NCBI GenBank assembly: GCA_950295325.1
Contig: OX485805.1
Coordinates: forward strand, 1,054,501-1,118,500
Source of the DNA: Polytrichum commune
Lineage: Eukaryota > Streptophyta > Polytrichopsida > Polytrichales > Polytrichaceae
Length of the DNA stretch: 64,000 bases
Direction of reading: 5' to 3'
The position numbers and the translations under genes are program-made. The first letter of the stretch is position 1. Every line of letters begins with the position of its first letter. The notes beneath the pieces are model-generated. The model saw nothing but the letters and a program-made list of their open reading frames with translations, ran no database searches and was not told the origin of the DNA. This document shows, in pieces, positions 339-58,945 of this stretch.

Positions 339-340
339 CG

Positions 341-31455: not shown

Positions 31456-32840
31456 CTGGGTTTCGGTCGACCTACCCAAACCTTGTGGCACGATGGGATC
31501 ATGGTCATCCAGATTCCATCCAAACAGTGGGGATAAATTGGGTCGAGCGACCCAAACGTTTTCGCAAGATGGGTTCAGGCTCATCACAGAGAGCACCCAC
31601 ACAGCGGGGATGGATTGGGTAGACCGTCCCAAATTATGTAAGGGCACTGGGATGGGTCAAACCTAGTACATGCCCACTGTGGGATAAGGTTTGGGTCGAC
31701 CGACCCAAACCTTATAGGGCAGGAAGGGCTCAAAGTCCACCCTAGTACCTGCCTCACGTGGGGGTGGGTTTGGGTCGACCGACCCAAACCTTCAGGGGCA
31801 GGATGGGCTCCGTGTGCACCCTAGTACCTGCCTCATGTGAAGGTGGGTTTGGGTCGACCGACCCAAACCTTCAGGGGCAGGATGGGCTCCGTGTGCACCC
31901 TAGTACCTGCCTCATGCGAAGGTGGGTTTGGGTCGACCGACCCAAACCTTCAGAGGCAGGATGGGCTCCGTGTGCACCCTAGTACCTGCCTCATGTGAAG
32001 GTGGGTTTGGGTCGACCGACCCAAACCTTCAGGGACAGGATGGGCTCCGTGTGCACCCTAGTACCTGCCTCATGTGAAGGTGGGTTTGGGTCGACCGACC
32101 CAAACCTTCAGGGGTAGGATGGACTCCGTGTCCACCCTAGTACCTGCCTCATGAGGGTATAGGTTTGGGGCGACCGACCCAAACCTTGAGGGGCAGGATG
32201 GACTCCGTGTCCATCCTAGTACCTGCCTCATGAGAGTATAGGTTTGGGTCGACCGACCCAAACATTGAGGGGCAGGATGGGCTCAGTGTGCACCCTAGTA
32301 CCTGCCCCATGTGAGGGTGGGTTTGGGTCGACCGACCCAAACCTTGAGGGGCAAGATGGACTCCGTGTCCACCCTAGTACCTGCCTCATGAGGGTATAGG
32401 TTTGGGTCGACCGACCCAAACCTTGAGGGCCAGGATGGGCTCTTTGTCCACTCTAGACCCTGCCTCACGAGGGGATAGGTTTGGGTCGACCGACCCAAAC
32501 CTTGAGGGCCAGGATGGGCTCCTTGTCCACTCTAGATCCTGCCTCACGAGGGGATAGGTTTGAGTCGACCGACCCAAACATTGAGGGGCAGCATGGGCTC
32601 CATGCGCACCCTAGTACTTGCCCCATGTGAGGGTGGGTTTGGGTCGACCGACCCAAACATTGAGGGGCAGGATGGACTCCGTGTCCACCCTAGTAACTGC
32701 CTCATGAGAGTAAAGGTTTGGGTCGACCGACCCAAACCTTGAGGGGCAAGATGGACTCCTCAGATGATCAGGGTCAGGCTGAAACCCGCCCACACTAGCG
32801 GAGGGGTTTGGGTCGACCGACCCAAACCTGATAAGAGTCA
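31456..32840. repeat. Element A intergenic palindrome satellite (79-bp period)
   Basis: From 31689 to about 32740 the 79-bp unit repeats 14 times, and each unit carries the palindrome GTTTGGGTCG-AC-CGACCCAAAC. Looser copies lie at about 31460, 31540 and 32800. The free centre is AC in almost every unit. Spacers share AGGATGG.CTC and CTAGTACCTGCC. The array lies between the divergent transposase and cargo genes, where a shared control region or protein-loading site would be expected. Confidence 0.92.
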
Positions 32841-35740
32841 CCCTAAAACCCTCAAAATCCGGCGGATAATGCGGCGGATAATCCGAAATGTGTTGATTTT
32901 GAGCTCATTGCAAAGTTCACGGTGGGCTTCCATGCTGTGGATAGGTGCTCATGAACTTGCATGCTGTGGATAAGTGCTAATGAACGGAAGCATGCACGAA
33001 CCTTGAAGTATAGCTCCGACTAAGAGTTCTTTCCACGAATTCAAGAGTGGGAGAAGAGCAAAAAAGGACTGAATTTTGGGGGGTGCGTCCCTTTATACTA
33101 TCCACCTCCGTTTCTCGGACTTCCTCATTGGATGCCTTTCCCGCCTTGTTCTCATATTTTGATTATTTCAAAACCTCCTAACATAATTCCCCGTTTTTTG
33201 TTTATAGTGGAAAATGCGCATCTATCAATGCCCCTCTGATACCCCAGCCGTCATATGACTTAGTCTATGATATTTAATCTTCTTTTTTTTGTCTTTTGTG
33301 GATATGACATACGCCGTTGGGAGGAAGGGTGGCGGCCACATTAATTTTTTCAAGTGTCATGACGGTATATTTTAACCAATATTTTAACTCCATTCAATGC
33401 TTTCAAGTGTAAACCTATTTAGGTGGGGTTTGGGCCATTTGGAGGCTGCAATTATGAAAGGGTTTCCAAGGCTTGAGGCCATTGTCGTGATGAATAAAAT
33501 TATTTATTTGTCTCCCATAAACCCTAAACCCTAGAACATTGCTCTATTATCTCGCATGCAAGTGTGGCAATGAGGAACGTATGTGGACGTTGTTAAAGGG
33601 ATACTAACTACCAATGTGGCGTTTTAGTTCAATCTATTAATGATATTTGAATCCATCTTGAAGTTCACTTCAAGTTTACTAATGTGTGGCCTTCGTGGCT
33701 CTTCGTGGCGCCAACCATCAAATGACATTGCTAATTCCGTGATGAAATAACTACACAAAATATGGGGTGTGTGTTTCATTATATTTAGTGTTGTTACCAC
33801 TCTACTATGCTCAACATTAATTTTTAAATCTTTGACAATTATTGTTACACATAAATGTGTCGCTTACCTTCTACTTTCACGTAAATTTTTTCTTTTCACA
33901 TCCTTCCTAACACTAATTGCAAACATGTAAATTCTACATATTACCATAGATGATACTTATTGTGAGAGTTTACATTTTATGTCACTGACTTTCATATGGT
34001 TATTGATATTTAGTGCATGCGCTTGTATATAGGGTATCAAACACTAGATATCATATTTTGTGTAGTTGGATTTTGTAACTTAAGTTATTTGTGATTTGAC
34101 CTGTCAAAAAAATGTAGTTAACTTTATTTGTTTAAAAAAATGTTTGACAAAAAATGTAGTGTTGTAGTGTCCCTACAATAAATAACATATTTAGAGTTTG
34201 ATACAATAAATACGAACGCATCTACTCAATACTAATACCACTATGAAAGTAAGTAACATCAAATGTAAACTCAAACACTCAATATTATCTATGGTAATAT
34301 GTTGAAGTTACATGTTTGAATATAGTGTTAGTAAGGATATGAAAAAAAAATGATAAAGAAAGATCTCCAATATATCTTCCAATATCCTATAACAATATTT
34401 GTCAAAAAAATTAAAATTATTGTTGATGGGGGTAGACTGTCTCATTTTATGTGCCTATGACATGCACCATTGGGAAGAAAATGATATTTGATAAGTGATT
34501 TTGAGAACCCATCCTCCACAACTTCACATTGATGCATTGCATACAAATTAAATTATGTACTTCCAGGATATTACTCTACTTGGACTCAAATATTATGGTT
34601 TATTTCAAATAATATCTTGACAATATATGTGGGAACATTATGAAACTTCATATAGCCAAAGCCACCAAATACAATAATTACAGTTTATGTCATTATGAAG
34701 ACTTTCACATGAGGACTTATACATTGAAAACAAGGAATTGATCTCATGAAAAATTTGAATAAATTGGCCAACTTTCAATTTGCAACAATAAAATGAGAAA
34801 AGCTTTAAAAGAACATGTGACGTTTGTAATGTGTGCACACAACGTTGATCCATTGTCCAACATACAAGTGTGGCAATGGATAACCTATGTGAAAGGCATT
34901 AATGGGAATTCCATCACGAATAGGACTTTTTAGTTCACTCTTTCAAGGATGTTTGAAACTATCATGAAGTCCATTTGAAATCTAGTATGAAGATCATATA
35001 TACTATAATCAAGTTATTATACTCTTTTTTTTAGACAGACATTGTTATAACTTAATATTGGTTGACATGATCGTGAGCACATATGATTAGGATGTTGTCA
35101 AGACAATATACATTTGTATTGGAAACTACAAGCACTAAGGCCCTGTCATTTAACCTTATGTGCCATTCATTTAAGGCTTGCGGTGTGTAGGGTTTAGGGT
35201 TTAGGGTTTAGGGTTTAGGGTTTAGGTTGGAGGGATCATCGAACATCAAGCTTAATGCTTAAATGGCTTCATATGATGTTGAACTCCATGGGGTTGCAGT
35301 AGATAAATTTGTAATCTTTGTGTATCTCCCATGTACTTCAAATGTCAACTTCTATGTACTGATATAAATGTTGAATTTAATGCTACTTGGGTGGGTAATA
35401 TCCATTGTATGCTAGAGCCTTATCTTCTACGAACTTGGGTTATAGAAATTACAATAGAGAGCACTAAACCCTTGACCATGTAAATTGTCACCATATTTTA
35501 ATTGTTGCACCGTGCAATTGCATTGAGAATTGCAATATACTTATGAAATACTCCTCTTAGACTTTGTATCGCTCTCATCTTACTCCATATGACTACATTA
35601 TTCAAATACTAAAACAAATAATGGATTCATTCTATGATGTAAGCAATTCCAACGCGGGACCATTGAATTGAACACCATTAAAATCAGAGTTGGTGATGGT
35701 GTTAATTTTGTGCAATACCTTAGGCTATGTTGCTTTTCGA
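32841..35740. other. AT-rich spacer of element A without genes
   Basis: No convincing gene is seen in this 2.9-kb stretch. Its order matches element D (about 61930-63700), with shared phrases such as TCTTCGTGGCGCCAACCATC (33698 and 62132) and TAACTACACAAAATATG. This shows it is a true part of the element family. Near 33793-33800 (GTTACCAC) lies the empty site of the hAT-like insertion found in D. Confidence 0.7.
35187..35226 (+). repeat. Interstitial telomere-like repeat (TTTAGGG)n
   Basis: About five perfect TTTAGGG units lie inside element A. Shorter runs occur at 52834-52857 and 63656-63690. TTTAGGG is the plant-type telomere unit. Confidence 0.9.
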
Positions 35741-35748
35741 TTTTTGGG

Positions 35749-35774
35749 CTAAGCCGCTATAGATAGCGGCTTAG
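35749..35774. repeat. 26-bp palindrome with 12-base arms and 2-base centre
   Basis: CTAAGCCGCTAT, then AG, then ATAGCGGCTTAG: perfect arms around two free bases. It lies about 200 bp upstream of the likely cargo promoter. The architecture matches the 22-bp palindromes but the sequence is unrelated. Confidence 0.9.
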
Positions 35775-35978
35775 AAGGCCGGGGCCGGGCTTTGGCGGGC
35801 AGGAGGCCGGGTGGCCGCTAGGCGCCAAGTGTGCACCCCAGAAGCCTCGGGTAGCCACCATCACCAATAAGGTGTTGACACATGGCAGGGTGGCTGCCCG
35901 CGAGGCTTGTGAGCCGTAGATGGGCTCGGGGCGCTCCCATGGCCCAGATTGGGTCCCATGGCGACCCTTCGCTTTGTC

Positions 35979-35985
35979 TATTTAA
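35979..35985 (+). promoter_or_regulatory. Possible TATA box of the element A cargo gene
   Basis: TATTTAA sits in a short GC-rich block (35790-36070), followed by pyrimidine-rich leader sequence (CTCTCATTCTCTC) typical of plant 5' leaders. The first coding exon starts 1.6 kb downstream after a long leader intron. Confidence 0.4.
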
Positions 35986-36139
35986 CTCCCTCCGCGCCAA
36001 GCTCCCTCCTTTCTCTCCCTCATTTCTCACCTTGTCGTGAAGCGGCGCCTCCGCCTAACGCCGCTTCCCACATTCTCTCTCTCATTCCTTTCCACCTCTC
36101 TGATTCTTGTAACCCTCTTCTCTCATTCTCTCTTTTTCT

Positions 36140-36620
36140 TGTAAGGGTTTAGGAGTGATTGTAGAGTGTGTTTAGGGGTTGGGGAAGTGTTTTTGTGTAG
36201 AAATATGCGCATTGAGTGATTTCAGGGTGTGTATGTTGATTAGGAGTGTTGTTTTGTTTAAAAATACAAGCATTGAGTGATTTCAGAGTGTGTTTGTTGG
36301 TTAGGACTGCAAGCGGCGCCTTTCGACTTACACTCATTCTCTCATTCTCTCATTCTCTCATACTCTCCTTCTCTCTTCTCTCATTCTTCTCGCCGTCTCT
36401 CATTCTCTCTTCTTCTTGTAAGGGTTTAGGAGTGATTGTAGTAGGGTAGTGTTTTTGTGTAAAAGTATCCGCATTGAGTGATTTCATAGTGTGTTTGTTG
36501 TTTAGGAGTGTTGTTTTGTTTAAAAATACGAGCATTGAGTGATTTCAGAGTGTGTTTGTTGGTTAGGAGTGTGTTTTTGTTTTAAAGTGCGCCGTTGTAG
36601 TGATTTCAGAGTGCTTTTGT
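36140..36620 (+). repeat. Degenerate direct repeats in cargo leader
   Basis: The phrase GCATTGAGTGATTTCAG recurs near 36209, 36271, 36471 and 36531. GTAAGGGTTTAGGAGTGATTG recurs at 36140 and 36417. Nothing coding is seen, and the stretch probably belongs to the untranslated leader. Confidence 0.65.
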
Positions 36621-36776
36621 TGTTTTGAAGTGTGTGTGAGTTGTTTGTGAAATCTAGTGAGTGGAATTCTAGTGAGTGTTAGTGATATCTGAGTGTTCAG
36701 GTGTAATCAGATTCTAAGAATCAGATTCGCAAAACCTATTCGCAAAACAACATCAGATTGGTAGAGCTTGCATCAA

Positions 36777-37599
36777 GGTAACTTATCTCATTCAACATAA
36801 CCTGCTTCTTAGCCTTTAGGGTCTTCATGCGTATACAATGTATAAGCATTGTATATGCAGCGTAAAACATTATGGGTGAATATGGAAACACTACGGTTTC
36901 GGTAGACGCCCGAAACCTCTATATAAAACCCCAAACCCATAAAGAATTAACTGGGCAGCTAGTTTGGGTCGACCGACCCAAACTCTGCAGCTGGTTGGGT
37001 TCGAACGACCCAAAACCTGCAGGCGGTTTGGGTCGCTCGACCCAAACTCTGCAGCTGGTTTGGGTCGCTCAACCCAAACTATGGAGCTGGTTTGGGTCGC
37101 TCGACCCAAACTCTGCAGCTGGTTTGGGTCGCTCGACCGAAACTATGCAGCTGGTTTGGGTCGAGCGACCCAAACTCTGCAGCTGGTTTAGGGTCGCTCG
37201 ACCCAAACTCTGCAACCTACAAATCCAATATCCCAAGATAAACATCCTTCCCACCATCAACAAGAAATTATATTCAAATGGCTATAATTTGAAATCGTCT
37301 GATATTTGCTGGCATGTCCACATACGTCCAGCGCGGCTCTAGAAGGTCACCGAAAATTGCTCTCATGCTGGATAATTTGACCACTACACAATATTCAATA
37401 TATTCATATTCTTAAGACCCGAACTCTACCAATAATTCTTATAAGATTAGGCTATTCGAGGCTTGGGTTTGGGTCGGTCGACCCAAACCTCTTCATGATG
37501 GCCAGTAGAGCACCCTTCAATTCGCACTGATGTTCAATCCAAGTTGAAAAACTTTGGGTCGATCGACCTAAACTAACAATTTTGTTTCTGGACTTACAG
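36777..37599 (+). other. Leader intron (intron 1) of cargo gene A with palindromes
   Basis: A donor AAG/GTAACT at about 36777 and an acceptor CTTACAG at 37599 enclose ten or so A-type palindromes (36960-37216, 37463, 37553). Their centres are AC, CT or AG, GT and AT. The acceptor is immediately followed by the start codon, as in paralogue B (GATGCAG/ATG). Confidence 0.65.
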
Positions 37600-38973
37600 A
37601 TGGCCACTAAAAAGAGACCTGGAGAGAGGTGGTTCATGCTCGCCCCAGACTACCTTTGGGAGGAGTACGAAACTCCACAGGACGACTCATACGTCCCAAA
37701 GGATGGGATTGTTTTTGCGTGGTCCGTTCAGGTTGTGAAAGCCTCCCAGTACAAGCTCTTGTTCGTGGTGAAAGTGGGGACCCACGAGCAACACACCTGG
37801 GCAACGCTGACGGGATGGGAGGTTGCTTCCGTCCAAGCTCTCGGGGAGCACGTTGACGTTATTCTAGAGAACTCCGCAGTGCAGAACGTGCATATGTTCA
37901 TGCACCAATTCTCCGAGGCTTTCGACCCCCTATACGCCAAGGAGACGTGCGTTGACCCGGAGATAATAAAACCGGAGACCATCTTCATAGATGGCACTGT
38001 ATCGAACACCAAGGTCGCTAGCAGGTTCACAAAACTGAAACAAGCGATCACGGTTTTGAATAAGGCGTTGCAAAGCAAACCAAAAACGCAACAACCTGTC
38101 AGGCGGAAGGCCAAGACAGAAGAAGGAGCAGGTTCCTCCAGACCCCAATCTGTAAGGATTCCGCTGGCGGTTCCGGCAGATTCTAGAAGACCGAGCACTA
38201 CCTCGACTCCGGCTGACAGCGAGACGCCAACTCCTTCAGGAAGCCGGCTGACGACCCCCTCCGGGAGCCGGCAGACGACCCCGTCCGGAAGCCGGCAGAC
38301 GACCCCGTCGAAAAGGGCAAGAGAGTCATCAGTCATGACCACCGAGCCAGTTTCGCCAGAGTTGCGGATGCCCAAGCCTGGCCAAGAGGTTGATGCTGGG
38401 GAAATTCAAAAAATCAAGGACAATTTTGAGACGAAATGCCTCCATTGCTTCTTCATGGGCAGGGACTTCAAGTTCGAGGTGAACATTGGACAATGCCACC
38501 TTGCGCCACCTGAAAAGTGTGTCCGAGCCAAGGAGGATGCCTATGTCGACTGGATGGTCGCTCAAATCTTGGGAGGGCAGTTCAAGGACGACAGGCAGAC
38601 AATTGTCGTGATGCCCCAGGGCTAAAAAGAATGCCTACGGCTGATATGTGGCCGGCGATTTCTAAAGGAGATTTCTGGCTGATTGACGGCCAGCACAGTG
38701 TAGAGGCCTCCAAAAAAATCCAGCTGATGACTGAATGGGACGACCCCAACAACCAGAAGGAGAAGCTGAAGGTATGGAAGGCACTGGTGGTTTGGTCGGA
38801 CAACGAGACCGTCCTCAGTGACATCTCCAGGTTTTTCAACATGGGGAATAAAAAGAGGGCGTATCAGGCATCCTGGATTAGGAATATAATGGCCTTGAGG
38901 GATGTGTGGGAGTTCTAGGGCAGGCCGCCCAAGGAAAGGGAGAATGCAAAAGACAAGAACCCAAAATGGGAGG
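37600..38973 (+). pseudogene. Cargo gene A exon 2: N-terminal domain and ParB/DGQHR-like motif
   Basis: The start codon directly follows the leader-intron acceptor. About 150 residues of an unrecognised domain (MATKKRPGERWFML...) come first. A Ser/Thr/Pro linker with three PSGSR(Q)TTP repeats and the basic KRAR (possible nuclear signal) follows. Next is a second region (HCFFMGRDFKFEVNIGQC) and a motif GDFWLIDGQHSVEAS near 38670-38715. IDGQH followed by an A/S-rich helix is the signature of the ParB N-terminal/sulfiredoxin and DGQHR families. The exon ends at the donor GAG/GTGAGT. One frame change near 38620 and one in-frame stop near 38917 are absent from paralogue B, so this copy looks inactive. 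Paralogue B (50348-49053) is collinear. Confidence 0.7.
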
Positions 38974-39408
38974 TGAGTAAGTTTGGGTCGATCGACCCAA
39001 ACTCTTGTATTGTTTTATTTTCTTCCCAAGTTTTGTAGTTTGGGTCGATTGACCCAAACTCTTGGATTCATCAGATTTAAAGTTTGGGTCGATCGACCCA
39101 AACTATTGGCATGTTTTATAGTCTTCATCAGATTTAAAGTTTGGGTCGATCGACCCAAACTATTGGCATGTTTTATAGTCTTCATCAGATTTAAAGTTTG
39201 GGTCGATCGACCCAAACTATTGGCATATTTTATAGTCTTCATCAGATTTAAAGTTTGGGTCGATCGACCCAAACTATTGGCATGTCTTATAGTCTTCATC
39301 AGATTTAAAGTTTGGGTCGATCGACCCAAACTATTGGCATGTCTTAAACTGCTGTTCCATTTTTTTCATGATGTGTTCTCTAACATATGTTCTTGACTTC
39401 ATGTTCAG
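38974..39408 (+). repeat. Cargo gene A intron 2 with 57-bp palindrome array
   Basis: Seven A-type palindromes lie here, all but one with centre AT. The last five sit in an exact 57-bp tandem repeat (CATCAGATTTAAAG starts at 39069, 39126, 39183, 39240 and 39297). The donor is GTGAGT and the acceptor is TGTTCAG. Confidence 0.9.
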
Positions 39409-40740
39409 GACTTCAAATACCAGATGATCAATAAATTCTCCTCTATCGACAACGCTAGCCACAAGCAAAAAAAATATAACGAGCTAAGAGGAGAAATCTA
39501 CTTGATCACAGCGTCCGACTCCGTGTGGACAAAATGGAAGACTGTCTTCGAAAAACACGAAACGGGAGACCTCATCGATCCCGACACCGGTATTCTGTAC
39601 AACCAGACTGCGCGCTTCAAGCAAATGAAGCCACTAGTGAGGGAGTTCTTTAGAGCTCTTCAAGGTCTCTCAGAGACAGAGGTGGGAAAGGCGGCGTCCC
39701 ACATCCTCCACGTGGAGCCGACGGCGAAGAGATGCTGGGTTCACCCAAAGATCGTCTTCACGAAGCCAAAGATCTTCGTCCCTTCATGCTACACCTTGAA
39801 GGAATGGACGGAGAACAGGAAGAAGAAGACGACCATTGTCCAAGAGCTGCACAAGCTGGTGCCCGAGAAGAAGCTCATCGTGGACGGAGAGGTTGACGAG
39901 GCGCACTGGAGGGCATTCAAAGCCGAGTACAAGTTCACCAGTGCGTCCATGGCGGCACTCATGAGGGAGGCGGGAGACGACTTCCTCAGGTCCAAGTTCG
40001 TGAAGGGGGGGAGGAACCGGGCGCTTCCCGAACACTCCGCGCGTGCCTTCTCCAACTTTATAAAGGAGAAGAAGATCGTCAGCTTCGAGGGCGAAGCTCA
40101 CTTCAACTTGGTCTCCCTCGAACCTCTAAAGATCCAAGGTTGGCCGGGCTCTGAGTCCAGGATGGCGATCAGGACTGCAGCTGGGGACCGCTTCCCCTTC
40201 GGAATGATAGACTTCAGGAACATTCCTGGAGCCTCATTCGAGGGGACAATGAGCACCCCGTTTTACGAGCCGTTCTTCACCAAGTTTGTGGACTACGCCA
40301 GCCCCAAATTCAAGGAGGTCGACGTCTGGTTGTGGATTGTCGAGGACAGGAGGGCGGAGCAGGTGTACGAGATCGTGCGTAAATTGCAACCAGAGTACGC
40401 CGTCTCAAAATCTCATTACGTTGCTGCACCGGCGGAGGGGGCGTACAGCTCATTGAAAGACAAGAAGACGAAGATAGTCTGTGTGCTGTGCTTGTACTTC
40501 GTGTACAAAGCTGAGCTGCTGAAGGTGCCAAACCATCCTATAGCCCGGATGGAAAAGCTTTTCCAAGTCCCAGAAGGGTTGGGCACCAGCAGGAGCTTGT
40601 ACGACGAGGCGAAGTACGCCAACTACCCCGCGGATGAGCTGCGGATGGATTTTTACCTGCGGATGATGAGGACCCTCACGAAGAGGGGGGACTTCATCTT
40701 CAACGTCTTCGGGGGCTCCAAACCGATTTTTGCAGCAATG
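39409..40740 (+). CDS. Cargo gene A exon 3: degenerate DNA methyltransferase-like domain
   Basis: The exon is 444 codons in phase 0, fully open, and about one-third identical by eye to paralogue B exon 3. Conserved blocks are INKFSSID, LVREFFRALQGLSE, FGMIDFRNIPGAS, VDVWLWIVED and, at the end, GDFIFNVFGGSKPIFAAM. The end block matches the DPFGGSGTTLIAA motif I of ParB-linked N4/N6 DNA methyltransferases. There the motif also follows a catalytic DPPY, which here would fall in the WIVED region and is not kept. The next exon begins NIYSYVEDTDVQFY, like the GIEIDPKYV strand that follows motif I. I infer a methyltransferase fold used for binding rather than catalysis. Confidence 0.55.
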
Positions 40741-41091
40741 GTAAGAAACTAACCTCGTCGATCTATATGCCTAGTTTGGGTCGAGCGACCCAAACTATGG
40801 GCATGCTTGGTTTGGGTTGCTCGACCCAAACTAGGGCATGCTTGGTTTGGGTCGCTCGACCCAAACTAGGGGCAGGCACAGTTTGGGTCGCTCGACCCAA
40901 ACTAGGGGCAGGCACAGTTTGGGTCGCTCGACCCAAACTAGGGGCAGGCACAGTTTGGGTCGTTCGACCCAAACTAGAGCAGGCACAGTTTGGGTCGCTC
41001 GACCCAAACTAAGTATTCTTGTTTTGTTTTGGGTGTTATTTTTGCTTATTCTTCATTTGTGATCCTAATATTATTGATTTGGATTGTGCAG
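40741..41091 (+). repeat. Cargo gene A intron 3 with palindrome array
   Basis: The intron carries seven A-type palindromes between 40774 and 41009, all with centre CT (or AG on the other strand) and spaced by about 35-38 bp with GGGGCAGGCACA spacers. The donor is ATG/GTAAGA and the acceptor is TTGTGCAG. Confidence 0.9.
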
Positions 41092-42552
41092 ATGTCTGGG
41101 TTGAACATCTACTCCTATGTGGAGGATACCGATGTTCAATTCTACAGGACCCAGAAGGCTCTAGCGAAGAGAATGGACATCCTCGACTGGATTCCCGGAT
41201 CCTACGTCGAAGAGATCGTCGAGGGGGCCGAGAACCCGTTGGATATGGCCAGGCGAATCAACCCAGGCGAATTCGTCATGCAGGCCCCCGTTCAAATGCC
41301 AGAACCCTTCACCGGATTGCATCCGGGCAATCCGTCCGTGGAGGCAGGTGGCGAGGTTGCGGAGGAGGAAGAGGAGGAGGAGGAGGAGAAAGTGGAAGGA
41401 GAGGTGGAGGAAGGGGCAACAGGATTCACTCAAGAATCCGAGGCCCCTCAGCGGAAGAAGGCCATGCGGGCTGCCACGCCGCAGAGCAAGCTAGTGCCCG
41501 TCCTCACGGTGGCCGACGCGAAGGACATGTATTCGAGGGACGCGACGGCCACCTTCAGGGAGCGGCGAATGCTGAAGGGGAAGAAATTATATAGCGACTA
41601 TGCGGTGGAAGAGACGACCGCCATAAGCTCCGAGGACGAGGACGACATGGAGCTCGCAAAGAGGCTGAGGTCGGATCCTGCCTCCCCCACAGCGTTCGCC
41701 GGGATGGTGAGGGTGAAACCCGAGGTCCTCACCGTGGAGGAGGCCAACGCGAAGATGCTCCGGGACGAGGAGCAACGCATCCGATTGCAGAAGGCCGCCG
41801 CCGAGGAGCCCTCGGTCCGCAACGAAGTCGCGGAGTTGAGGGCTCTCCTGTTGGAGCAGGAGCGGCAAAGGGCGATGGCCCCACCTCCGTCCCAAGCGGA
41901 CCTGATCACGCAAGTGATCCAGGGCATGCTGGCGCAGGGATTGGTGATGGCTCCCCCGAGTTCATTCCCTCACTTGCCAGCAGGCTTCCCTCCACAGGAT
42001 ATCCGCCCGCGGCCGGCTACGCAGCAGTCCTTCAGCTTCGCGCATTTGCTGCAGCCTCACGCCCGCCCTTACGCGCCCATCCAGCAGGTGGACGACCCCA
42101 ACCTTTGGCGCGTCCCCGGAGCTTCCAGCCCGTTGGGACCCCCGCCGCTCCGGCCTCCCATCCTCTTGCCCCCACACCACCAGCGGGACGACCCCCACAT
42201 GTTTGGGTCGGCCGACCCAAACAGTGCCGACGTTGCAGCTTCCCAGAGCGACGCTCGCCAAACAACAGGGTTTGGGTCGGCCGACCCAAACCCCGTCCCC
42301 AATCAGACCCCGGTGGACGAGCCCATGTTAGATGTTGAAGGCCCGCAAGGGCCTGGTGATACCTCTACTCCTAACCCAGTCGATGAACCAATGCATGATG
42401 CGCATGCGGAGGTTGGGTTGGGACAAAGGCCTGACAGTCAGCCTTTGCATGAGCAGGTTGAGGCTGAAGTCGTTGTCGGAGGCGGCGGTGACAGAGGTGG
42501 GGCAGCACACGCGGTGACGGCATCCACGTCGTCAAGGCGCGACCAAGGCGAG
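41092..42552 (+). CDS. Cargo gene A exon 4: end of methyltransferase-like fold and long charged/proline linker
   Basis: The exon is 487 codons in phase 0, fully open. It begins MSGLNIYSYVEDTDVQFYRTQKAL, parallel to B's MLGLCVNTYIDAVDEEDYKFHRTKA. A Glu run (about residues 85-105), a predicted helical segment (EEANAKMLRDEEQRIRLQ) and a Pro-rich tail follow. Two A-type palindromes lie in the coding sequence (42201-42222 and 42270-42291). Both are read in frame as FGSADPN. The exon ends at the donor GAG/GTAATG. Exon B4 has nearly the same length (481 codons) and also carries two palindromes of its own type. Confidence 0.65.
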
Positions 42553-43880: not shown

Positions 43881-43892
43881 GACACTACGTGT

Positions 43893-43910
43893 GTTTGTAT
43901 GTGTATGTAT

Positions 43911-43941
<31 letters not shown>

Positions 43942-43942
43942 C
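43893..43942 (+). repeat. GT/GC microsatellite
   Basis: About 50 bp of (GT)n turning to (GC)n lie just after the phosphatase stop codon. Confidence 0.9.
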
Positions 43943-45569: not shown

Positions 45570-45570
45570 A

Positions 45571-47415: not shown

Positions 47416-47603
47416 CTGAGATAAGAAGGCAAAGATTCAGTCATTTACGAACGCGCGTTCGTAAACATGAAGGCTTTGAGCGAGGAAATACTAACAAAAT
47501 AATTCACAAAACAATCATAAGTATCGGCTGCCCATGATAAATTGTTTGGAGCATGCAGTGTTTACGAACGAGCGTTCGTAAAAAGTGGTGTGAGATGGCT
47601 TAC
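47416..47603 (-). repeat. Cargo gene B intron 3 with two palindromes
   Basis: The 188-bp GT-AG intron holds B palindromes at 47444-47465 (centre CG) and 47561-47582 (centre AG or CT). Confidence 0.85.
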
Positions 47604-48929: not shown

Positions 48930-49052
48930 CTGCAACATACATACGACGACGTCAGTGTTCAATACTAAATACGAACGCACGTTCGTAAGTTGGAAAATTT
49001 AGAAATTGTTTAATGCAACATATGCTTTACAAACGCTCGTTCGTGAACTCAC
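48930..49052 (-). repeat. Cargo gene B intron 2 with two palindromes
   Basis: The 123-bp intron (donor GTGAGT, acceptor GTTGCAG) carries B palindromes near 48968 (centre CA) and 49027 (centre CT). Confidence 0.85.
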
Positions 49053-50348
49053 CTTCCACTGTGGAGATTGCGTCTTGGCGTTCTCCCTCTCTTTTGGCGG
49101 GCATCCGTGCGCGACCCACACGTCTCTGGCCGCCACTATATTCGCCGCCCAAGAGGCCTCGAATGCCTTGATCTTGTTTCCGGAATTCAAAAATGTAGAT
49201 ATTTTGCGGAGCTTGTCCTAGTCGTCAGACCAAACCAAAAACGCCTTCCAGTAGCGCAGGTCCGCCTTGAGCTCGTGCTGGAAGTTATCATCCTTTAGGA
49301 TGATCTGTGACGCCTCCAGACTGTGTTGTCCATCGATTATCCAGAACTCTCCATTCTGGATTCTTGGCCAATCCTTCTCTGTGGGGCGTGACAAAAAACC
49401 CTTGGGCATCACGCAGACGGTCTGCCTATCCCACTTGACGTTGTTCATGAGGTTATTAATCTGCCACTTCACCCCCCCGCTTTCACGAGACCTCACCATC
49501 CACTTGTTAGGGGATTTCTCGCACTTGAAACAATCCACGTTGAAAGTGAAGTGGCGTCCCATAGGCCAGCAATCCTTGGAGTAGTTGTTGAAGTCTCGAA
49601 GGATTTTTGTCGCTTTGGCAGCGTCTAGGTTTTCTCCCTTCTTCAAAGGGGTTGGCATCACTGGAGGAGAATTAACCTCAGCGCCTTCCGTCAATCCGGA
49701 CTTCTCCATCTTGTCCCTCGACCTCTTGGATGGAGTGGATTGTCTGCTGGGCCCTTCTGTCAACCTGCTCCCCGAATGCACAGGCCGCGGAGCACTTCTC
49801 GATCCTCCTGCCCCCGAAGCAGCTGGTTTTTTCGGACTTTTCTTTTTTTTATTTGCCTCCGCGGCAACACTGTTGTACTTCGAAACATTCAAGGTCAAGG
49901 CAGTCAACTTCCTCGCCGTCCAGTGTTGACTCAGGGCATATTTGGTAAAGAGAGCATCCAGGTTGAAATGTTTCGCATCGGATGCGACATTATTGCATGC
50001 ATAAGCATAAGAGAATGGGTGCAATAGGTAGTTTAAGAGGAGGTTCACATGGTCTTTTTTATTTTTCATATCCAGAATAACAAAGTCTCCTTGTGCCTCT
50101 ACGGACTCTATCTCCCAATTCTTTGTCTGCACCCATTGGTCTGGTTGGTCAGCCCTTGTCTGCAGCTCATAAGTGAATCGCAATGCAAACAACCCTTCGT
50201 CGGTCTTCGTGGGGATGGCCATCCACTCAGCCATGACTTCTTCTTTTGGGACATAGTTGTCGTTCCCATTGGTATCCGAGACTCCCTCTGGAAGGCGCTC
50301 CACTGGCACTGCGAACAAGTCGATGGCGTTTCTGCTAGCTTTAGCCAT
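49053..50348 (-). pseudogene. Cargo gene B exon 2: N-terminal domain and ParB/DGQHR-like motif
   Basis: The exon is 432 codons in phase 0 with one in-frame stop near 49218. The start codon (MAKASRNAIDLF) directly follows the acceptor GATGCAG. It has an N-terminal domain like that of A, a linker with SGSRLTEGPSRQSTPSKRSRD (possible nuclear signal), the MGRHFTFNVDCF block, and the motif GEFWIIDGQHSLEAS. The aligned A motif is GDFWLIDGQHSVEAS. ParB and DGQHR relatives bind or act on DNA and use such a motif for nucleotide binding. The product is probably a DNA-binding protein of the element. Confidence 0.68.
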
Positions 50349-50379
50349 CTGCATCACACAAGAGCAAATCAGAATCGCT

Positions 50380-50868
50380 TTTACGAACGTTCGTTCGTAA
50401 ACAACACCGTGCCATGCATACTATTTTCATAGTGTGGTTTTTGGAAATACGAAGTTTTGAATGCTTTATGCATTTCAGGGTGGTTTCCAATGCATTCACA
50501 TTGGTTCACATCTTTCACGAACGCGCGTTCATAATATGAGATACCTGTTTATTAGTATTTTGTACGTAACTATACGAACGCGCGTTCGTAATATCATGCG
50601 ATATTGTGTAACCTACTGAGTTAAATTTTAGTGTTGTGATTGGATTTAAGTACTTATATGAATTACAGCATGGATATATCCCTCCATTTTGGATTTAGGG
50701 TTTCGAACGCACGTTCGTAAACGTAGTCCTTGGGTTCCAAAGAATCTTTACGAACGCGTGTTCGTAAAATGGTATATATTTTGCGCAGCACATGCATTTA
50801 CGAACGTGGGTTCGTAAATGGTTGTATATTGTGTGCGGTAGAGGTATTTACGAACGCTCGTTCGTAAA
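50380..50868. repeat. B-type palindromes in leader intron of cargo gene B
   Basis: Seven copies lie at about 50380, 50514, 50571, 50701, 50748, 50797 and 50847, with centres TT, CG, CG, CA, CG, TG and CT. They match the position of the A-type palindromes in intron 1 of A. Confidence 0.88.
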
Positions 50869-50869
50869 T

Positions 50870-53800
50870 GAGCCTGTTGTTTGTTTTTATATATATAATT
50901 AATAATAACAATATAGTGTCCGTACATATACGGATTCGTATACATACGTATGGCCAGGTCTTGCTTGCTGTGTCTCAGCAAAGCTTGCACTTGTGCCTGC
51001 AAGTGTTCGTCAGAAATGTGAGATTGAAGAAAAACAATACAATCAAAACATATAGACTTGGAATGTGACAGAGAATTCAGAATGAGGATCCGAACTTGAC
51101 TTCCAAAACACATGCCATTCAATAATGAACAAATATAGACTGTGAAGGATTTGAGAATGGAAAGAATATTGTGCTTACTCTGAAATTTTACACACCCAAA
51201 AGTTGCTTGCTCCCTTGTTGAAAACCCCAGGAAACCCCAGGAAACCCCACAAAAGCAAGGTGATTTGAAAGTCAAATGCACCACTGCACCACTGAAATTG
51301 CCTTCACACTAGTTGTTGCATGCTATGTACAAACCCTAACTAAGACTCTGATGTATATGCAACTTCAAATGCAGTATCTCTCAAGCTGCTACTCTAAAAC
51401 TTGCAATTATCAAGCTTATAGCTTGAGTATCCTAATCTTAAGCTTCCAACTCTCAAGCTTTCAACTCTACAAACTTTCAACTCTCCAACTTTCAACTCTT
51501 CTAGCTCGAGTTCTCTATTCTTAAGCTGCAACTCTCAAGGGACTGTCAATAACTCTCAACACTTGCGCCTACAAAAGAAGTGCACCACACAAAACTAAAA
51601 ATTGCAAGAGCTTCGCCTCTAAACTCTAAACCAACGCGGCGCTCCTCCTCTCTCTGCTCCAAATGAGAATGAGGAAGGAGAGGAGGGGGCGCGGGGAGGT
51701 AGCCCGCGCCTCTAGGGTTTTCCCTCGGGCTGCCACATGGCTGCTTCCCATTGGGGAGGGAAGGGATGGGTCGGGCTAGGAAGATGAGGGGATGGGATGG
51801 GTGGATGGGGGGGATGGGTTGGAATTCATTGGGGTTTAGTAATTCAATGTAATCAAAGCACATAAATATATTCAATGTGACTTAATAAAGTGATTTGCAT
51901 GGGGGGCACTAACCGATTTGACATAAATATATGTCATCACAATAAGAAATGCAACTATATATTACACCATTTGCACTTAGTTTGAGACTTTCCCAACTCT
52001 CTAATTAACGAAAATAATCTAAGTTGGATGTATAAGCAATAAAGGCACGTTAATTTCAAGCTTTTTAATATGTATATGCCTCCATCACATAAACATAAGG
52101 AGTCCAGTACAAAACATGCATTTTAAATGCTACATCCCCTTCATCTACTTTGGATACATTGTAAACATCTTCTAGATAGGGAGTATGAATTCAATTTCCA
52201 CATTGCACATCATGTACTAGGGATTCGATGAAAACCCTACCCCCAACGATGTGTATTAATATGGTTGTTTAGAAATTCCCTATTTTGGGACGGGTTGTTT
52301 TTTCTTTAACCTTTCCATGGACGGGTTGGTTTAGAAATAATTACCAGTTTTGGGACGGGTTGCAATTTTTTTTGCATTTCAATTCAAGGTTTTTGGACGT
52401 GGACGGGCAAAACCTTTGTGAAAAATCAGCCTTCGGTGGGGGGGTTTAAAAAAGAACAACTATACAAAATGTACAAGTAACACTTGTACAACTAAAACCC
52501 TAAAACATGAACATTTATAGAATTAACACTAATTGTTTTTAAAAAGAGGACCCTAAGGTTTAATACAAAAAAAACATAAACGATAGTATATATAATTCAA
52601 CTTAACTATTAATTGAATGAAACATTCTACAATATGTAACACTTATAACGACTTGAATGTATAAGTAATGAGTTCACATTAAATTCATGATTTGTAAACC
52701 CTATATGTAATGGATGCGTCTATCACATTAACTTCAATAACTTAGTAAACATGCTTGAATTTTATTTATCGTCATTCATCTGAGGACATTTTAGATTGAA
52801 CTTGTGCATTGCAGCCATGTGGTCGAATACACTAAACCCTAAACCCTAAACCCTAAACACTATCACCAACCCTAAACTCTACATCCCTGCATCTTTGTAT
52901 CTTACATGGTAGTCTTGTATGTGGCCATGTTGTGATCTATGGGCATGTCAAAATGATCTACCGATGTTCGATGGATTGGAAATTGCTTTATTCGATTCAT
53001 ATCAATCGTAATAATTGAGAATCATGCCGATTGTCATTTGGAGATTCTAAATTAATTGAATTGAGACAAAAATTTGGTTTATGTGATTAATAAAACTTGA
53101 AACTTAAGAGTTTTGATGAAATAATAACTTAATAGTTATTATACAATTTGATCACACAATCCATACTTAATATTATTATAACTTGCATGTCTTAGGCTCT
53201 TGCTCTTAATTCATGCGTCAATGATTTTCTGTTCATGGGTCCATGAGTCCCACTCCCACCTTATTGAGTGATATAAATTTAGTTTCTAAATTTAGTTTCT
53301 TTTATATATCAAGGTTAAGAAGAGTTATGGATGGTATTTCCATTGAATTGATTCAAGTTCCATTAATTCTCGGTATGTTCCCTTCCTTTGGGGTCTATTT
53401 TTCATTTCATGTGCAAATATTTTCATGTAACTATATTTCATAATTTCGTTCACTTCAATGCCTTTATGTCTAATATAAGGTGTATCCGATTTGGAAACTA
53501 TACGTATGGAAGTTTTAGTTTGTAATTACAAGTCCATATTTGAAATTTAAAGTGCGTTCTTAAATAGTCTCCAATTACCAAATATACCATTATTGTATTA
53601 GATATGAATTGTTAATTAACTTGGACTTCACACCTTGGTTGCAAATCATTTCATTTTCTATGTCAAAATTCATAATATTTAAATATCATGAAACATATAT
53701 ATGTATATATATATATATATAGATTTGGTGGTTCAGACCTTGGTTACATCTAAGGTGTGCGACCGATTTACATTTTTTTCCAATATAATGTGCTTGCATG

Positions 53801-54090
53801 CAATACATGTTGCATACAAAATGCTATTTATATAATTGGTCATGGCGGGAATGGCATATTGGTAGGTCTAGGTAGGGGGCGGGAATCCGCTTTTTAAAGA
53901 GCATCCAAGAGATTTTGAACCACCGGGGGGAGGTACTTAAAGCTTTTCCCCCCACGGGAGAGCTCTTTTCTGCGGCTGACGGGAGGTGTGCGCTCTAGAG
54001 AGTCGTCGGAGCGCGCTCAAGCCACCCTCCTGTTCGCCAACCGTACTCCTCACAGGTACACGCCATAGCATATCCCGCATATACCGCCGC
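50870..54090. other. Upstream and intergenic part of element B, no gene seen
   Basis: The region includes a likely leader area with CTCTCAAC/TTTCAACTCT direct repeats (51390-51540), a GC-rich patch (51600-51830), an interstitial telomere-like run (52834-52857), and an AT dinucleotide tract (53698-53722). No convincing coding sequence is found. The short open frames look random. Confidence 0.6.
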
Positions 54091-54097
54091 AAATACC

Positions 54098-54290
54098 AGA
54101 TACTTACGAACGCTCGTTCGTAAGTATGAGGTCCCATCACTAGCACAGTTGGATTGGACGGAATGTTGTGGGTTTACGAATGTGTGTTCGTAACTACCAA
54201 AGTATACCAGAGTCGACGTTGTGACACATGTATATCAATCATTTGCAATGCAAATGGTGGTTCATTTACGAACGTGCGTTCGTAAATGTG
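54098..54290. repeat. B-type palindromes beside element D
   Basis: Three copies lie at about 54102, 54173 and 54265 (centres CT, TG, TG). They end 20-odd bases from the TIR of D. They are probably the start of the intergenic array of B, now cut by D. Confidence 0.85.
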
Positions 54291-54845
54291 GCATCTACGC
54301 TTTTATGTATGTAATACTATATTCGTTAAATTGAGACTTTCTCTAGTCTCAAATTAATATATGGATCAAACAACATGAAGATGCCTGAAACTATATTGTC
54401 AACAATTTCAAATATATTAAATGTTCTAATATCCCACACCTATGATGTGCGGACATAAGCACATATGGTAGAGCACTCAACACCAACTTCATCAACAAAA
54501 ACACATTGGGTAGAGCACTCCAAACAAGTTTCACCCAAAAATATATATATAATGATTTCTATTATGAGCATGCTCCATAGAATATAGACATTGCAACATA
54601 CAAAGTGCATGTAATAAATGCATATTTTTTCAATGGACAATTTAGTCCCAAACTTAATAAAAAAATGAACTTCACATTTGTATTGAAATATAGTAAATGG
54701 ATATTCATCCAACTCCAAAACAATATAGTATTCGTAAGTTCTACCCAAACTCTGCCCCAATTTTGAAGAGCACACATATGAGTAATATATGTTCGTAGAA
54801 TTACTGTTTACACTATAATCATGCTAACACAATCCTACCAACTTC

Positions 54846-57800
54846 TCATTCAACGTGGGTTGCTTCTTCTGCGATCCGAGCAAGGTTGTCTTTTGCAAAA
54901 ATTATGTACTTTTGAGGGATGGACACTGATCCACTATGATTTTTCCGTGGTTTCCATGCTATGAATATGGAATCTGTATCTACCCAAGATGGACCGTGCT
55001 CAGAATCCACCTTCCACCGAAAGTTAGGATTTGTATCCCAGCCTGTATAATGCCGAATCACATCTTCATTCCTTGCCGTCGGTCGGTAGTACTCCAATTG
55101 TATTTGTCGAAAATGAGGGCTGGAAGTTACAAAATTGGGTTTGGACAAAGCTCTTGCCACCCACACTGGCTTCACATATGTCTCGTCTCCAGGACGCAAA
55201 ATGAGCATATATCCTTCATGACAATCCACTGCAATGCGGAAAGATGGTGGCGGACGACTACTAGCAGGCCCCACGTAATGGTCGTCCACATCAAACTCCT
55301 CTCGAACCTCTCCATTTCCCAAAAGACTAGCCTCCGAAGCTTGTACATTGACTCGTGTTTGTGGCCAAAATCCATGCCTCAAAGTATGAGGGCTATCTTG
55401 GTGGAGGTCTACCAAGGCGGCACGAACACGTGTCCAATAATGTATCCAACTCCCATAACGATGCCAACATGATCCGCCAACATCCGCTATCTTCAAACTC
55501 TCCCAATATTGTATGAAGCTTGATATACCTTTCAAAATATCCTCCAAATTCTTCATGGCTATTGGCTTACAAGGGCTAGGCTCCCCATCCGGTAACATGG
55601 TCTTCCCATCCGCATCCACGCGCCACACAAGAAGACCCTCCGGCGGGCTCCAGTCTTGTGTCGTGCACAACAACTTGTATTGCATGGCCGGGACACCATC
55701 GTCACGCATGTAGAACCGGAATTGTTGTGCCTTCGTATGCCCGATCAATCGGTGAGCTCTACTTCGAATATAAGGTTCTATAAATGCCTTGAAGTCTGGC
55801 ACCTCCTCAATCATATGGGGAATGACGGGAACGTTCTCCAAATCCATGTACGACTTCATCAATAATGGGATTGTAGGAAAATCCTCCTCCCGCAACTTCA
55901 TGCTCCACCGCCCAAAAGATGCATCAATATCATCGTGCGTGTGGCCTACCAATAGGAAGGACACAAAAACCTCCTTGAAAATGCCTTTCGCAACCAACAA
56001 CGACCAATATGCAAATACATATCTACTTTTATTGTCCTTGGCACAATTGTCCAATTGGACACGCAAAGTTGGAGGCAACTTCTTGGCAATCACGGGTTCA
56101 TTGGGTGGCTCGGGCAACGAATGCAAGCATACATCTTTTCCATCCAACACCGCTTCATATAAAGGTGTTGAACCCGTGTTCTCAAATAACAATCCTGAAG
56201 AATAGGCTGGTGGTTTCTCTAAATCACGTAAAAGCCTTGCAAATGATCCTATCGTGTGGTTTGAATCCGCTGGATACAAATCAAGAGCATAATGAGCAAA
56301 CTTGACATCACCGTGTCCATGTGCAATCATTCTTGCAATGCCAACCCAACGTGATTAGCATCTATGTATGAATAAACCATTATGAAGGAATCCATGTTCT
56401 CCAGTACATCACGGAATAAAAAACCACAACATTTAGGGTATGTCATGACATTGTTTCGAAGTTCACCTGTAACCGATACAGGCAACTTAAAAAACCCATC
56501 CGTGGCCTTGATTCGATTTGCAAAACATGGGGAGGTTGTTTTGGCATGGTCCATTTTGTCATGGATGACCGTAAGAACCTCCAAGGGCCTGGAGATGGAC
56601 AAAGCTCTATTTGTGTAGTAATCATTACGGTGTGCCTCTTGCATATTTACGTGCTTGAAATAGTTCAATTGATGCGCTGCATATGACTCGGTACCCATCG
56701 TGTGTGCATCCCGGAGGCGCTTCAACTTCTCGCAATTAGAGCACCTGGCAAATTTGTCCCCTCGTCTTTTTGTAATGTATTCACTAAAGTTTTGTTTCTT
56801 GATTGCACTTAATTTTGACAATGAAATTGGCTCCAACCCAATCTTCTCGCCAACTGCATTAACGTCCAACAATATGTCTTTTCATTTTGTGCCTGTGGGA
56901 AGAACTTTCTCCACAACTTTTTCACCGGTTGTGAGTGTGCGTGTTTTGTGCGGCATTGCATCAGCAAGGGGGACAATGATGGTTGCTAGGGTTGCCGTTG
57001 CTTGCCTTGTTGCTTCCCTAGGTTTCTTTAAACCCACGTTCCCATGTTGACGGGACCGGCGGCCTTCCTTGGCATAAGCAGCTTGTCTATAGAAGTCCGC
57101 CTTCGACACACCGTGAATGGTGTACCATGCCTTACAACACACGTCTATGCTTTCAATGGTGATTACCTTGCGACCCGTCCCATTCACATGTATTGCCCTA
57201 TGGACATCAAGTTTTTTTGTGGATCTTAGACGAAAATCTCCAAGCCACATTTCTTCACGGATGGCCTTCAATTTATCCCTTGGAAACAATTGGCAACAAC
57301 AATGCACACAACAATCCTTTGTGGCAACTTCTCTTATGGACTCCTCCCCAAGCAGCCTTTGACGTTTACAATCAGTTGCAGATGGAGAAGGACGTGCCAC
57401 AGTATCGTACTTTCTTTGACCCTTGCGTGGCCGCATGTTTGATTGCATTTACTTTTCGAGTTGCATGTGTCGTTGCTCATGTTCACGCAAGCTAACTCCA
57501 TCAGTCGTGACATTCCTCAATGGCCACCTGCGGAGGGAGAACCTATGAGTGGGATCCACCTCAGAAGGAACGAGTGACTCCAATATGACAATCCCAATGT
57601 CCTCGGTGCCAAGCGGATTTTGATCAATGCAATCTTGTGGATGGGTGTTACGACAAATACCCTCCGCCACAACAACCCCATTGTCATTAAGAAGTAACAC
57701 ATCCAAATTCACCCATGAAGCTCTTGAAAGCCCGGCACACTCTGGAATGGGACAGTCCGGTACGGAACGCGAAGGTATATCGAAATGCTCTTCATCTGAA

Positions 57801-57910
57801 CTCTCATCCATAGTAGCCTCCCCGACAATGTCTAGCTCTTCCTCAGATGCAGATGGCCAAATGGCCATGTCTTCTCCAGACGAATACCCTCTTCCAGTAT
57901 ACCCATCCAT
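54846..57910 (-). pseudogene. Element D transposase (DUF7869 family), three exons, damaged
   Basis: The exon plan equals that of A: 57910-56926, 56853-56467 and about 56332-54846. The catalytic motifs MDHAK, LDNCAKDNK and HTHDDID are all present. The C-terminal part is BAH- or Tudor-like. Two faults are visible. There is an in-frame TAA near 57449, where A has a Glu codon. The second-intron acceptor also differs (TAG in A, CAA here), which moves the only nearby AG by one base. It therefore carries different lesions from A. Confidence 0.78.
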
Positions 57911-58094
57911 TTTGCCTACACACATGAACATGGAACCTTGTAAAGAATTGACAAAAGCTATAGGGTCCAATAGAAAAACACAGAAACCTTATCATAACAC
58001 ATGTTGTATGAATATTATATCGATGGGTTCCAAAAAGATGGAGCGCACAACAGTTTATTCAGGATCCGTCTATGCACATCCCCATTGTGTGCAT

Positions 58095-58945
58095 GAGGGT
58101 GGGTTTGGGTCGAGCAACCCAAACCTCGTGATAGGATGGGCCTGCTAATCCAGGCCCAACCCGTGACAGGGGTGGGTTTGGGTCGCTCGACCCAAACCTC
58201 ACAATGGAGGTGGGTTTGGGTCGCTCGACCCAAACCTCACAATGGAGGTGGGTTTGGGTCGCTCGACCCAAACCTCACAATGGAGGTGTGTTTGGGTCGA
58301 GCGACCCAAACCTCGTGACAGGATGGGCCTGGTAATCCAGACCCAGCCCTTGATAGGGGTGGGTTTGGGTCGCTCGACCCAAACCTTGTGACAGGATGGG
58401 CCTGCTAATCCAGGCCCAACCCCTGACAGGGGTGGGTTTGGGTCGCTCGCCCCAAACCTCACAATGGAGGTGTGTTTGGGTCGTGCGACCCAAACCTCAT
58501 GACAGGATGGGCCTGGCAATCCAGGCCCAGCGCGTGATAGCGGTGGGTTTGGGTCGCTCGACCCAAACCTCATAATGGAGGTGGGTTTGGGTCGAGCGAC
58601 CCAAACCTCGTGACAGGATGGGCCTGCTAATCCAGGCCCAACCCGTGACAGGGGTGGGTTTGGGTCGCTCGACCCAAACCTCACAATGGAGGTGTGTTTG
58701 GGTCGAGCGACCCAAACCTCACAATGGAGGTGTGTTTGGGTCGAGCGACCCAAACCTCGTTACAGGATGGGCCTGCTAATCCAGGCCCAGCCCGTGAGAG
58801 GGGGTGGGTTTGGGTCGAGCGACCCAAACCTCGTGACAGGATGGGCCTGCTAATCCAGGCCCAGCCCATGATAGGGGTGGGTTTGGGTCGCTCGACCCAA
58901 ACCTCACTATGGGGGTGGGTTTGGGTCGAGCGACCCAAACATTCC
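58095..58945. repeat. Element D intergenic palindrome array
   Basis: About 16 palindromes use the same arms as A (GTTTGGGTCG / CGACCCAAAC) but with centre CT or AG instead of AC. They alternate with spacers carrying a second palindrome GGGCCTG...CAGGCCC. The spacing is irregular (about 37 to 90 bp), unlike the exact 79-bp unit in A. Confidence 0.9.

Follow-up and report, generated by a model that had tools for sequence, protein, structure and literature searches.

The 64,000-nucleotide stretch of the Polytrichum commune genome analyzed here (contig OX485805.1, positions 1,054,501 to 1,118,500; called the window at its full length) contains three transposable elements, A, B, and D, that carry many copies of a 22-bp palindrome. 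The palindrome of A and D is unrelated in sequence to that of B, and the locus raises the question of what these sites are for. We found that the palindrome type follows the lineage of an element-encoded protein, here called the DGQH protein after a motif in it, and this protein is the probable reader of the sites.

Two palindrome types are partitioned between two element lineages

The three elements are as follows, in window positions.

27651..45569, plus strand: element A, 17.9 kb, bounded by terminal inverted repeats (TIRs), apparently nested in B
45570..54312, minus strand: element B, main segment in view (further pieces, 26905-27650 and 19444-19620)
54313..64000, plus strand: left part of element D (A family), starting at ~54313, its left end abutting B

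The A-type palindrome, GTTTGGGTCGNNCGACCCAAAC, was matched 60 times in the window at ≤3 mismatches (shuffle mean, 0.01), and the B-type palindrome, TTTACGAACGNNCGTTCGTAAA, was matched 20 times at the same threshold (shuffle mean, 0.00). All 80 sites were partitioned by the element boundaries: 44 A-type sites lie in A and 16 in D, all 20 B-type sites lie in B, and none is crossed. With next to no sites expected, these counts confirm the earlier sequence-only reading, which had assigned one palindrome type to A and D and the other to B.

Both types have the same format of two 10-bp arms around a 2-bp center (10+2+10, 22 bp), and the center dinucleotide is free in both. The A-type arms carried 1.74-1.78 bits of information versus 0.09-0.15 bits in the 15-bp flanks, as measured on 17 sites chosen by hand to represent the arrays, and the B-type arms carried 1.51 bits versus 0.00-0.04 bits in the 15-bp flanks of all 21 sites found at ≤5 mismatches. 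In addition, the A-type tandem units, which differ in length (79, 57, 36, and 32 bp in A; 38/73/111 bp in D), have little in common beyond the palindrome. In an alignment of intron 3 from 11 copies, picked for diversity from the 17 B-lineage copies described below, 20 of the 22 palindrome columns were invariant, while flanks and lengths had diverged. The palindromic sites outlive their surroundings.

Three simpler accounts of the palindromes were rejected. An RNA hairpin does not fit the occurrence of the same palindromes in intergenic DNA, introns, and exons, and the 2-base center is too short for a loop. A simple satellite repeat is contradicted by the dissimilarity of the array units outside the palindrome. 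CpG decay gave no clear signal, with CpG transitions accounting for 4 of 19 substitutions in the A-type sites (P 0.03) and 7 of 34 in the B-type sites (P 0.16).

The sites occupy matching positions in the DGQH genes of A and B

The genes and site groups of element A are listed first, followed by those of B and D; splice sites were placed by eye.

28182..31273, minus strand: DUF7869 gene of A, with open segments at 28182-29690 and 30218-31273
31460..32827: 17 A-type palindromes in the intergenic array of A, whose tandem units are mostly 79 bp long
36962..37573: upstream of the DGQH coding start in A, 10 A-type palindromes (a 32-bp array and two single sites)
37600..42561, plus strand: DGQH gene of A, coding exons 37600-38972, 39409-40740, and 41092-42561
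38981..39331: intron 2 of A, 7 A-type palindromes in 57-bp units
40774..41009: intron 3 of A, 7 A-type palindromes in 36-bp units
42201..42291: exon 4 of A, 2 A-type palindromes, each with a frame offset of 2 by coordinates
42574..42595: a single A-type palindrome immediately past the 3' end of the DGQH reading frame
43029..43877, plus strand: NIF/FCP1-type phosphatase-like gene of A (Pfam NIF, E 6.5e-15)
27563..27631: 2 B-type palindromes beyond the A insertion, the second degenerate, between the NIF and DGQH genes of B
45571..50868: 16 B-type palindromes, at 45571, 45618, and 45922; in exon 4 at 46032 and 46420; in intron 3 at 47444 and 47561; in intron 2 at 48968 and 49026; and seven 5' of the coding start at 50380-50868
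45973..50348, minus strand: DGQH gene of B, coding exons 50348-49053, 48929-47604, and 47415-45973
54103..54286: intergenic group of B, 3 B-type palindromes, cut off by the left end of D
54846-57988, minus strand: DUF7869 gene of D
58103-58940: array of D, 16 A-type palindromes
C3:1140271 onward (outside the window): DGQH gene of D

Element A is ordered DUF7869 gene (minus strand), array, DGQH gene (plus), and NIF gene (plus). Element B, which is reversed, shows NIF, DGQH, and palindromes; D begins after these palindromes, and no DUF7869 gene belonging to B was seen in the window. The DUF7869 gene of A encodes a probable transposase. The Pfam match to DUF7869 (E 4e-41) was scored on the copy in D, and A and D are 92.8% identical in DNA over 27644-31332, with an exon dS (synonymous divergence) of 0.142 and dN (nonsynonymous divergence) of 0.021. 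Both DGQH copies in the window are damaged: that of A has a frameshift and a stop in exon 2, and that of B has an in-frame TAG in exons 2 and 4.

The DGQH proteins of A and B are 38% identical in exon 3, 30% and 55% in two pieces of exon 2, and 30% in exon 4, and dS in exon 3 is saturated at 2.2 (dN, 0.67). At this distance, the sites nonetheless fall into the same compartments: intron 2 contains 7 sites in A and 2 in B, intron 3 likewise 7 and 2, exon 4 contains 2 in each, the region 5' of the coding start 10 and 7, and the interval between the transposase-like gene and the DGQH gene 17 and 3, whereas exons 2 and 3 contain none in either element. When the B sites were placed at random 20000 times, the pattern of two or more in both intron 2 and intron 3, with exons 2-3 empty, never arose.

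Within exon 4, the distance between the two sites is 69 bp in A and 388 bp in B; in B, the in-frame TAG falls between them. By coordinates, the two B sites differ in frame, with offsets of 2 and 0, and the constraint is thus on the DNA rather than on the peptide. The matching positions claimed by the sequence-only reading hold for introns 2 and 3, for the two sites within exon 4, and for the intergenic region, and extend to the region 5' of the coding start. The proposed fourth intron is doubtful, because a stop is encountered 3-4 codons past its donor in both reading frames (GEVMH* and DEVTHL*), and the last site of each gene (42574 in A, 45922 in B) probably lies just 3' of the gene.

Two side observations concern these gene regions. 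A plant-type telomere-like TTTAGGG tract is present once in each element, in the spacer 5' of the DGQH gene (A 35193-35220, B 52837-52857, D 63658-63671). The NIF/FCP1-type genes of both lineages (43029-43877 and 26970-27464) encode DLNGVL at the catalytic motif; the usual motif of this type is DxDx(T/V), and the second catalytic aspartate may thus be missing.

Palindrome type follows the protein lineage across the host genome

The sequence-only reading had proposed that palindrome type be compared with protein phylogeny over genomic copies. The host genome (407.8 Mb, 64 contigs) contained 9231 exact A-type sites, and a reversed control gave 0. Searching with exon 3 of B gave 1178 candidates; scores were obtained for 95, at 83-100% identity, and 16 of these, spread across identity bands (83-97%) and chosen by protein match regardless of palindromes, were examined.

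All 16 copies had a B palindrome in intron 2 (≤1 arm mismatch), lying 92-152 bases upstream of exon 3, and in 15 of the 16 intron 3 contained one as well. In the window copy of B, two sites are present in intron 3 and the two in intron 2 are more degenerate. With this copy included, the B palindrome was present in 17 of 17 B-lineage copies. The A palindrome was present in all five A-lineage copies, namely that of A in the window, the gene of D at 79% identity, and three others at 82-93%. Lineage and palindrome type were mismatched in none of the 22 copies, and in the exon-3 tree each palindrome type formed one side of a branch with 100/100 support. A perfect-armed 10-2-10 palindrome in exon 3 was absent from all 22, and one copy, L046, contained a second site whose two arms had changed in a matching way.

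These results indicate that type and lineage match in 22 of 22 copies, as the proposed comparison had envisaged, with a single deep split between A and B that corresponds to one evolutionary switch.

Among the B-lineage copies at 83% identity, many scored an identical 869.9 bits and had an exon 3 free of stops, a pattern indicative of the recent expansion of a single subfamily.

A second transposon family shares the A-type palindrome

Five regions were first picked around A sites. Three contain an A-lineage DGQH gene; the other two (L021 and L022) do not and belong to another family, characterized by minus-strand open reading frames (ORFs) and by a gene on the plus strand whose motif is KMFFIWDGNHRF.AW (GNHR). 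Near 2.154-2.160 Mb of contig C1, A sites occupy the gap that separates two minus-strand ORFs and a position immediately 5' of the GNHR gene, next to a CCCTGTGCGTTAACGCACAGGG array, and the same pairing of A-type sites with a CCCTGTGCGTTAACGCACAGGG array was seen near 462 kb of C1. The A palindrome is therefore not confined to DGQH elements. The sequence-only reading had put at stake whether one protein lineage carries unrelated palindromes and whether the palindromes occur away from these elements: no crossed palindrome was found in the 22 DGQH copies, and the A-type sites of the GNHR family partly go against it.

A relative of the GNHR protein (35% identical) is encoded by an element nested in D, in which 34 copies of GAGGCCTCGGATCCGAGGCCTC (≤3 mismatches) lie between divergent genes. 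In the three palindromes found with or near the GNHR family, the center is nearly fixed (AT in 35 of 38, TA in 32 of 32, and TA in 22 of 25), unlike in the A- and B-type palindromes.

The GNHR family regions are L021, L022, and L028-L037 (C1 430-500 kb and 2136-2186 kb), with a further array, GGTGTCTCGGTACCGAGACACC, at C1 467-472 kb. The element nested in D corresponds to L023 and L024:1-7700 (C3 ~1119.6-1136.1 kb), and its plus-strand gene has the motif FVWEGNHRLTAWW. Its minus-strand ORF, which has no Pfam match, contains what we take to be a SWIM-like motif.

Relationship of the DGQH protein to known families

The sequence-only reading had named a ParB/methyltransferase-like protein as the first candidate for binding the palindromes. 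Comparison of the DGQH protein with a set of phage ParB-like/DUF6551 proteins gave hhalign probabilities of 95 and 94, for a set picked by a search with the same motif, whereas comparison with an independent ParB pair gave 0.6. The label "ParB-like", which is based on one motif, is accordingly a lead rather than a result. For the GNHR proteins, the probabilities were 21 against the phage set and 0.5 against the DGQH alignment, and 0.2 for one of them against the independent ParB pair.

The methyltransferase part of the candidate found no support: the probability against Escherichia coli YhdJ was 0.5, although the aligned stretch is the expected C-terminal motif (FGGS/FAGS), and the DGQH exons had no Pfam or NCBIfam match to a beta-class DNA methyltransferase. 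The ParB link is suggestive.

No ParA-like match was found among the window proteins scanned, a scan that covered part of the ORFs. Exon 4 of B had a sub-threshold match to the coiled-coil family HAUS-augmin3 (E 0.0019). Sequence searches of the PDB with exon 3 and DUF7869 gave no convincing match (best E 0.027 over 51 residues), the IMG/VR pattern and protein scans and the GTDB genome scans revealed no relative, tblastn against phages gave E values of 0.7-10 only, and an Rfam scan returned 0 families.

Nested architecture of the window

The window appears to be a nest in which A, D, and a further A-family fragment were all inserted in one element B. The fragment is listed below.

18413..19443, minus strand: left end of a third A-family copy, a fragment lying within the NIF coding region of B

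This fragment is 100% identical over 1031 bp to the reversed left end of A (27651-28681). Element A is bounded by perfect 28-bp TIRs at 27651-27678 and, reversed, at 45542-45569 (readable one base longer, as 29 bp), and by a 4-bp target-site duplication (TSD), ATTT, at 27647-27650 and 45570-45573. The right-hand duplication overlaps the edge of a B palindrome at 45571. The sequence ACTATATTCGTTAAATTGAGAC is common to three left ends and one right end. An earlier layout of the elements is corrected accordingly: A lies inside B, the left end of D abuts B, and B extends leftward to the sites at 27563 and 27610.

The NIF gene of B is also split by a long terminal repeat (LTR) retrotransposon at ~19621-26904, with a 5-bp duplication, CGGGG, and LTRs that are 100% identical. 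Related copies of this LTR element occupy most of 1-18412.

An insertion preference for B palindromes was considered and rejected; the right end of A and the left end of D are ≤30 bp from one, the third insertion is not, and three events are too few.

A probable element-encoded reader of the palindromes

The sites are symmetric and numerous, have been amplified repeatedly as the cores of arrays, lie in introns and between genes, and match one protein lineage each; they are therefore best read as the binding sites of the protein of that lineage. That some protein binds them is very probable, and that the DGQH protein does so is likely. The palindrome of each lineage would be bound by a symmetric dimer of its own DGQH protein, which would load at the many sites in introns, intergenic arrays, and exon 4. 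Once loaded, it would shield the element genes from silencing by the host or activate them, in the manner of VANC in VANDAL elements. Such an anti-silencing or activating role has in our estimate a little less than an even chance. It looks like a transposon that reads its own address to switch itself on. Taken as a whole, the explanation is evenly poised between right and wrong; in it, A and B represent two ancient lineages of the same kind of large DNA transposon, which share a fixed plan (transposase-like gene, palindrome array, DGQH gene, and NIF-phosphatase-like gene), DGQH dimers bind the palindromes, and binding counters silencing or activates the genes. The proposal of the sequence-only reading, that element-specific sites evolve together with an element-encoded DNA-binding protein, gains from the agreement of type and lineage in 22 of 22 copies and is tempered by the single switch and by the A-type sites in the GNHR family.

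Several observations weigh against this explanation. The DGQH exons have no significant match to a Pfam, NCBIfam, or PHROGs family (best PHROGs E 0.07), and the structure models of exon 3 and exon 2 have mean pLDDT (predicted local distance difference test) values of 34 and 38, too poor for a fold search. The A-type palindrome is shared with elements that encode the GNHR-motif protein instead. The comparison of A with B provides a single evolutionary contrast, three of the five A copies were picked via their A sites and the A sites of D were known beforehand, and the B-lineage sample comprises 16 of 95 scored copies out of 1178 candidates. Furthermore, degenerate A-like sites (4-5 mismatches) are present near the ends of A, at 27842-27863, 44472, 44900, and 45092-45309, three of them in a 98-bp tandem array.

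These degenerate sites bear on whether the palindromes are instead bound by the transposase or a partner for cutting and synapsis, like the TNPA subterminal repeats of CACTA elements. CACTA elements are described as having family-specific repeats to which an element protein binds (PMC2613891), and the two end regions of A contain six degenerate A-like sites (≤5 mismatches, in 4 places), where 300 first-order resamplings gave a mean of 0.03 and never reached 3. The CACTA repeats are subterminal (PMC2613891), however, whereas the intact sites here are internal, in introns, exon 4, and the interval between genes, none of them <2.9 kb from the ends of A; at ≤3 mismatches, no A site lies within 3.8 kb of the left end or 2.9 kb of the right end. 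With the intact sites so distant from the ends, and despite the degenerate sites near both of them, we regard transposase binding as quite unlikely. The host-regulator explanation, in which several families use targets of a host protein as promoters or enhancers and the link to the DGQH protein reflects inheritance rather than co-evolution, would account for an A-type palindrome in two transposon families with different proteins, and A versus B is one split. Two unrelated palindromes that sit at corresponding positions in homologous genes are not easily attributed to a host factor, and the five classified A-site places comprise three A-lineage DGQH genes and two GNHR elements, a weak point in that it covers five of the places among which the 9231 A-type sites are distributed. 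This explanation is unlikely.

A ParB/parS-type clamp that serves segregation, or the maintenance of an excised circle as an episome, in place of anti-silencing would fit the DGQH motif, the hhalign match to the phage ParB-like/DUF6551 proteins, and the many palindromic sites per element; parS sites are palindromic and occur in multiple copies. The lack of a ParA-like match among the proteins scanned, the non-significant independent ParB comparison, and the many sites in introns make such a clamp very improbable. Binding by the DGQH protein itself might also be part of a wider guild of at least two transposon families, each with its own palindrome and a ParB-like partner protein, DGQH or GNHR, in which clamps would load, spread, and hold off silencing, and some members would carry the palindrome of another family and thereby exploit its protein. 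The palindromes proposed for this guild, a rather unlikely extension, are GTTTGGGTCG, TTTACGAACG, GAGGCCTCGG, CCCTGTGCGT, and perhaps the arms of GGTGTCTCGG.

Comparison with known systems

The sequence-only reading knew of no described plant transposon with this layout, but VANDAL21 and VANDAL6 of Arabidopsis, with their VANC proteins, are a close precedent. In these families, tandem repeats located in introns and upstream regions contain a motif specific to the family, and the VANC of each family acts on its own motif, removing methylation from its own family (PMC5735166). The likeness lies in a family-specific motif in tandem arrays of non-coding regions and in related elements with different motifs, although the A-type palindrome is not fully exclusive. 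It extends to an unrelated transposon, AT9TSD1, which carries the VANC6 motif (PMC5735166), as the GNHR elements carry A-type sites. That the GNHR elements borrow the site of A, in parallel to AT9TSD1 with its VANC6 motif, would be the neatest reading.

In contrast, the VANC motifs are 8-9 bp long, in one orientation, and mainly non-coding (PMC5735166, PMC10398659), whereas the sites here are 22-bp palindromes that occur also in exon 4. The VANC domains DUF1985 and DUF287 had no Pfam match in the DGQH exons scanned, and the transposase-like gene here is of the DUF7869 type. The A/B system would thus work like VANDAL/VANC without being classed as a member of it, given the lack of a VANC domain match, the DUF7869 gene, and long palindromes versus short directional motifs.

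CACTA/En-Spm elements resemble the present ones in having an element-encoded DNA-binding protein (binding being predicted here) and divergent family-specific repeats (PMC2613891), and the TIR here contains CACTA (AACACTATATTCG). They differ in that the intact sites here are internal and not subterminal, the TSD is 4 bp (one insertion) and not 3, and the probable transposase is DUF7869 and not Tnp2. The DGQHR proteins of the ParB/Srx fold (GmrS and DndB) share the I-D-G-Q-H motif (PMC4619093); the motif here is DGQHS rather than DGQHR, and the DGQH protein has neither a significant family match nor a ParA-like companion among the proteins scanned. Among the open-access papers searched, no account of this A/B palindrome system was recognised.

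The precedent considered here for sequence-specific anti-silencing by a transposon is Arabidopsis VANDAL (PMC5735166). If the present explanation is true, Polytrichum commune would provide a second such system, built on unrelated proteins and long palindromes, with two cleanly separated lineages and sites numbering in the thousands. It would allow one to ask which residues set specificity and how dozens of dispersed sites can change in step with a protein, as well as whether ParB-type proteins were recruited for chromatin regulation in a eukaryote.

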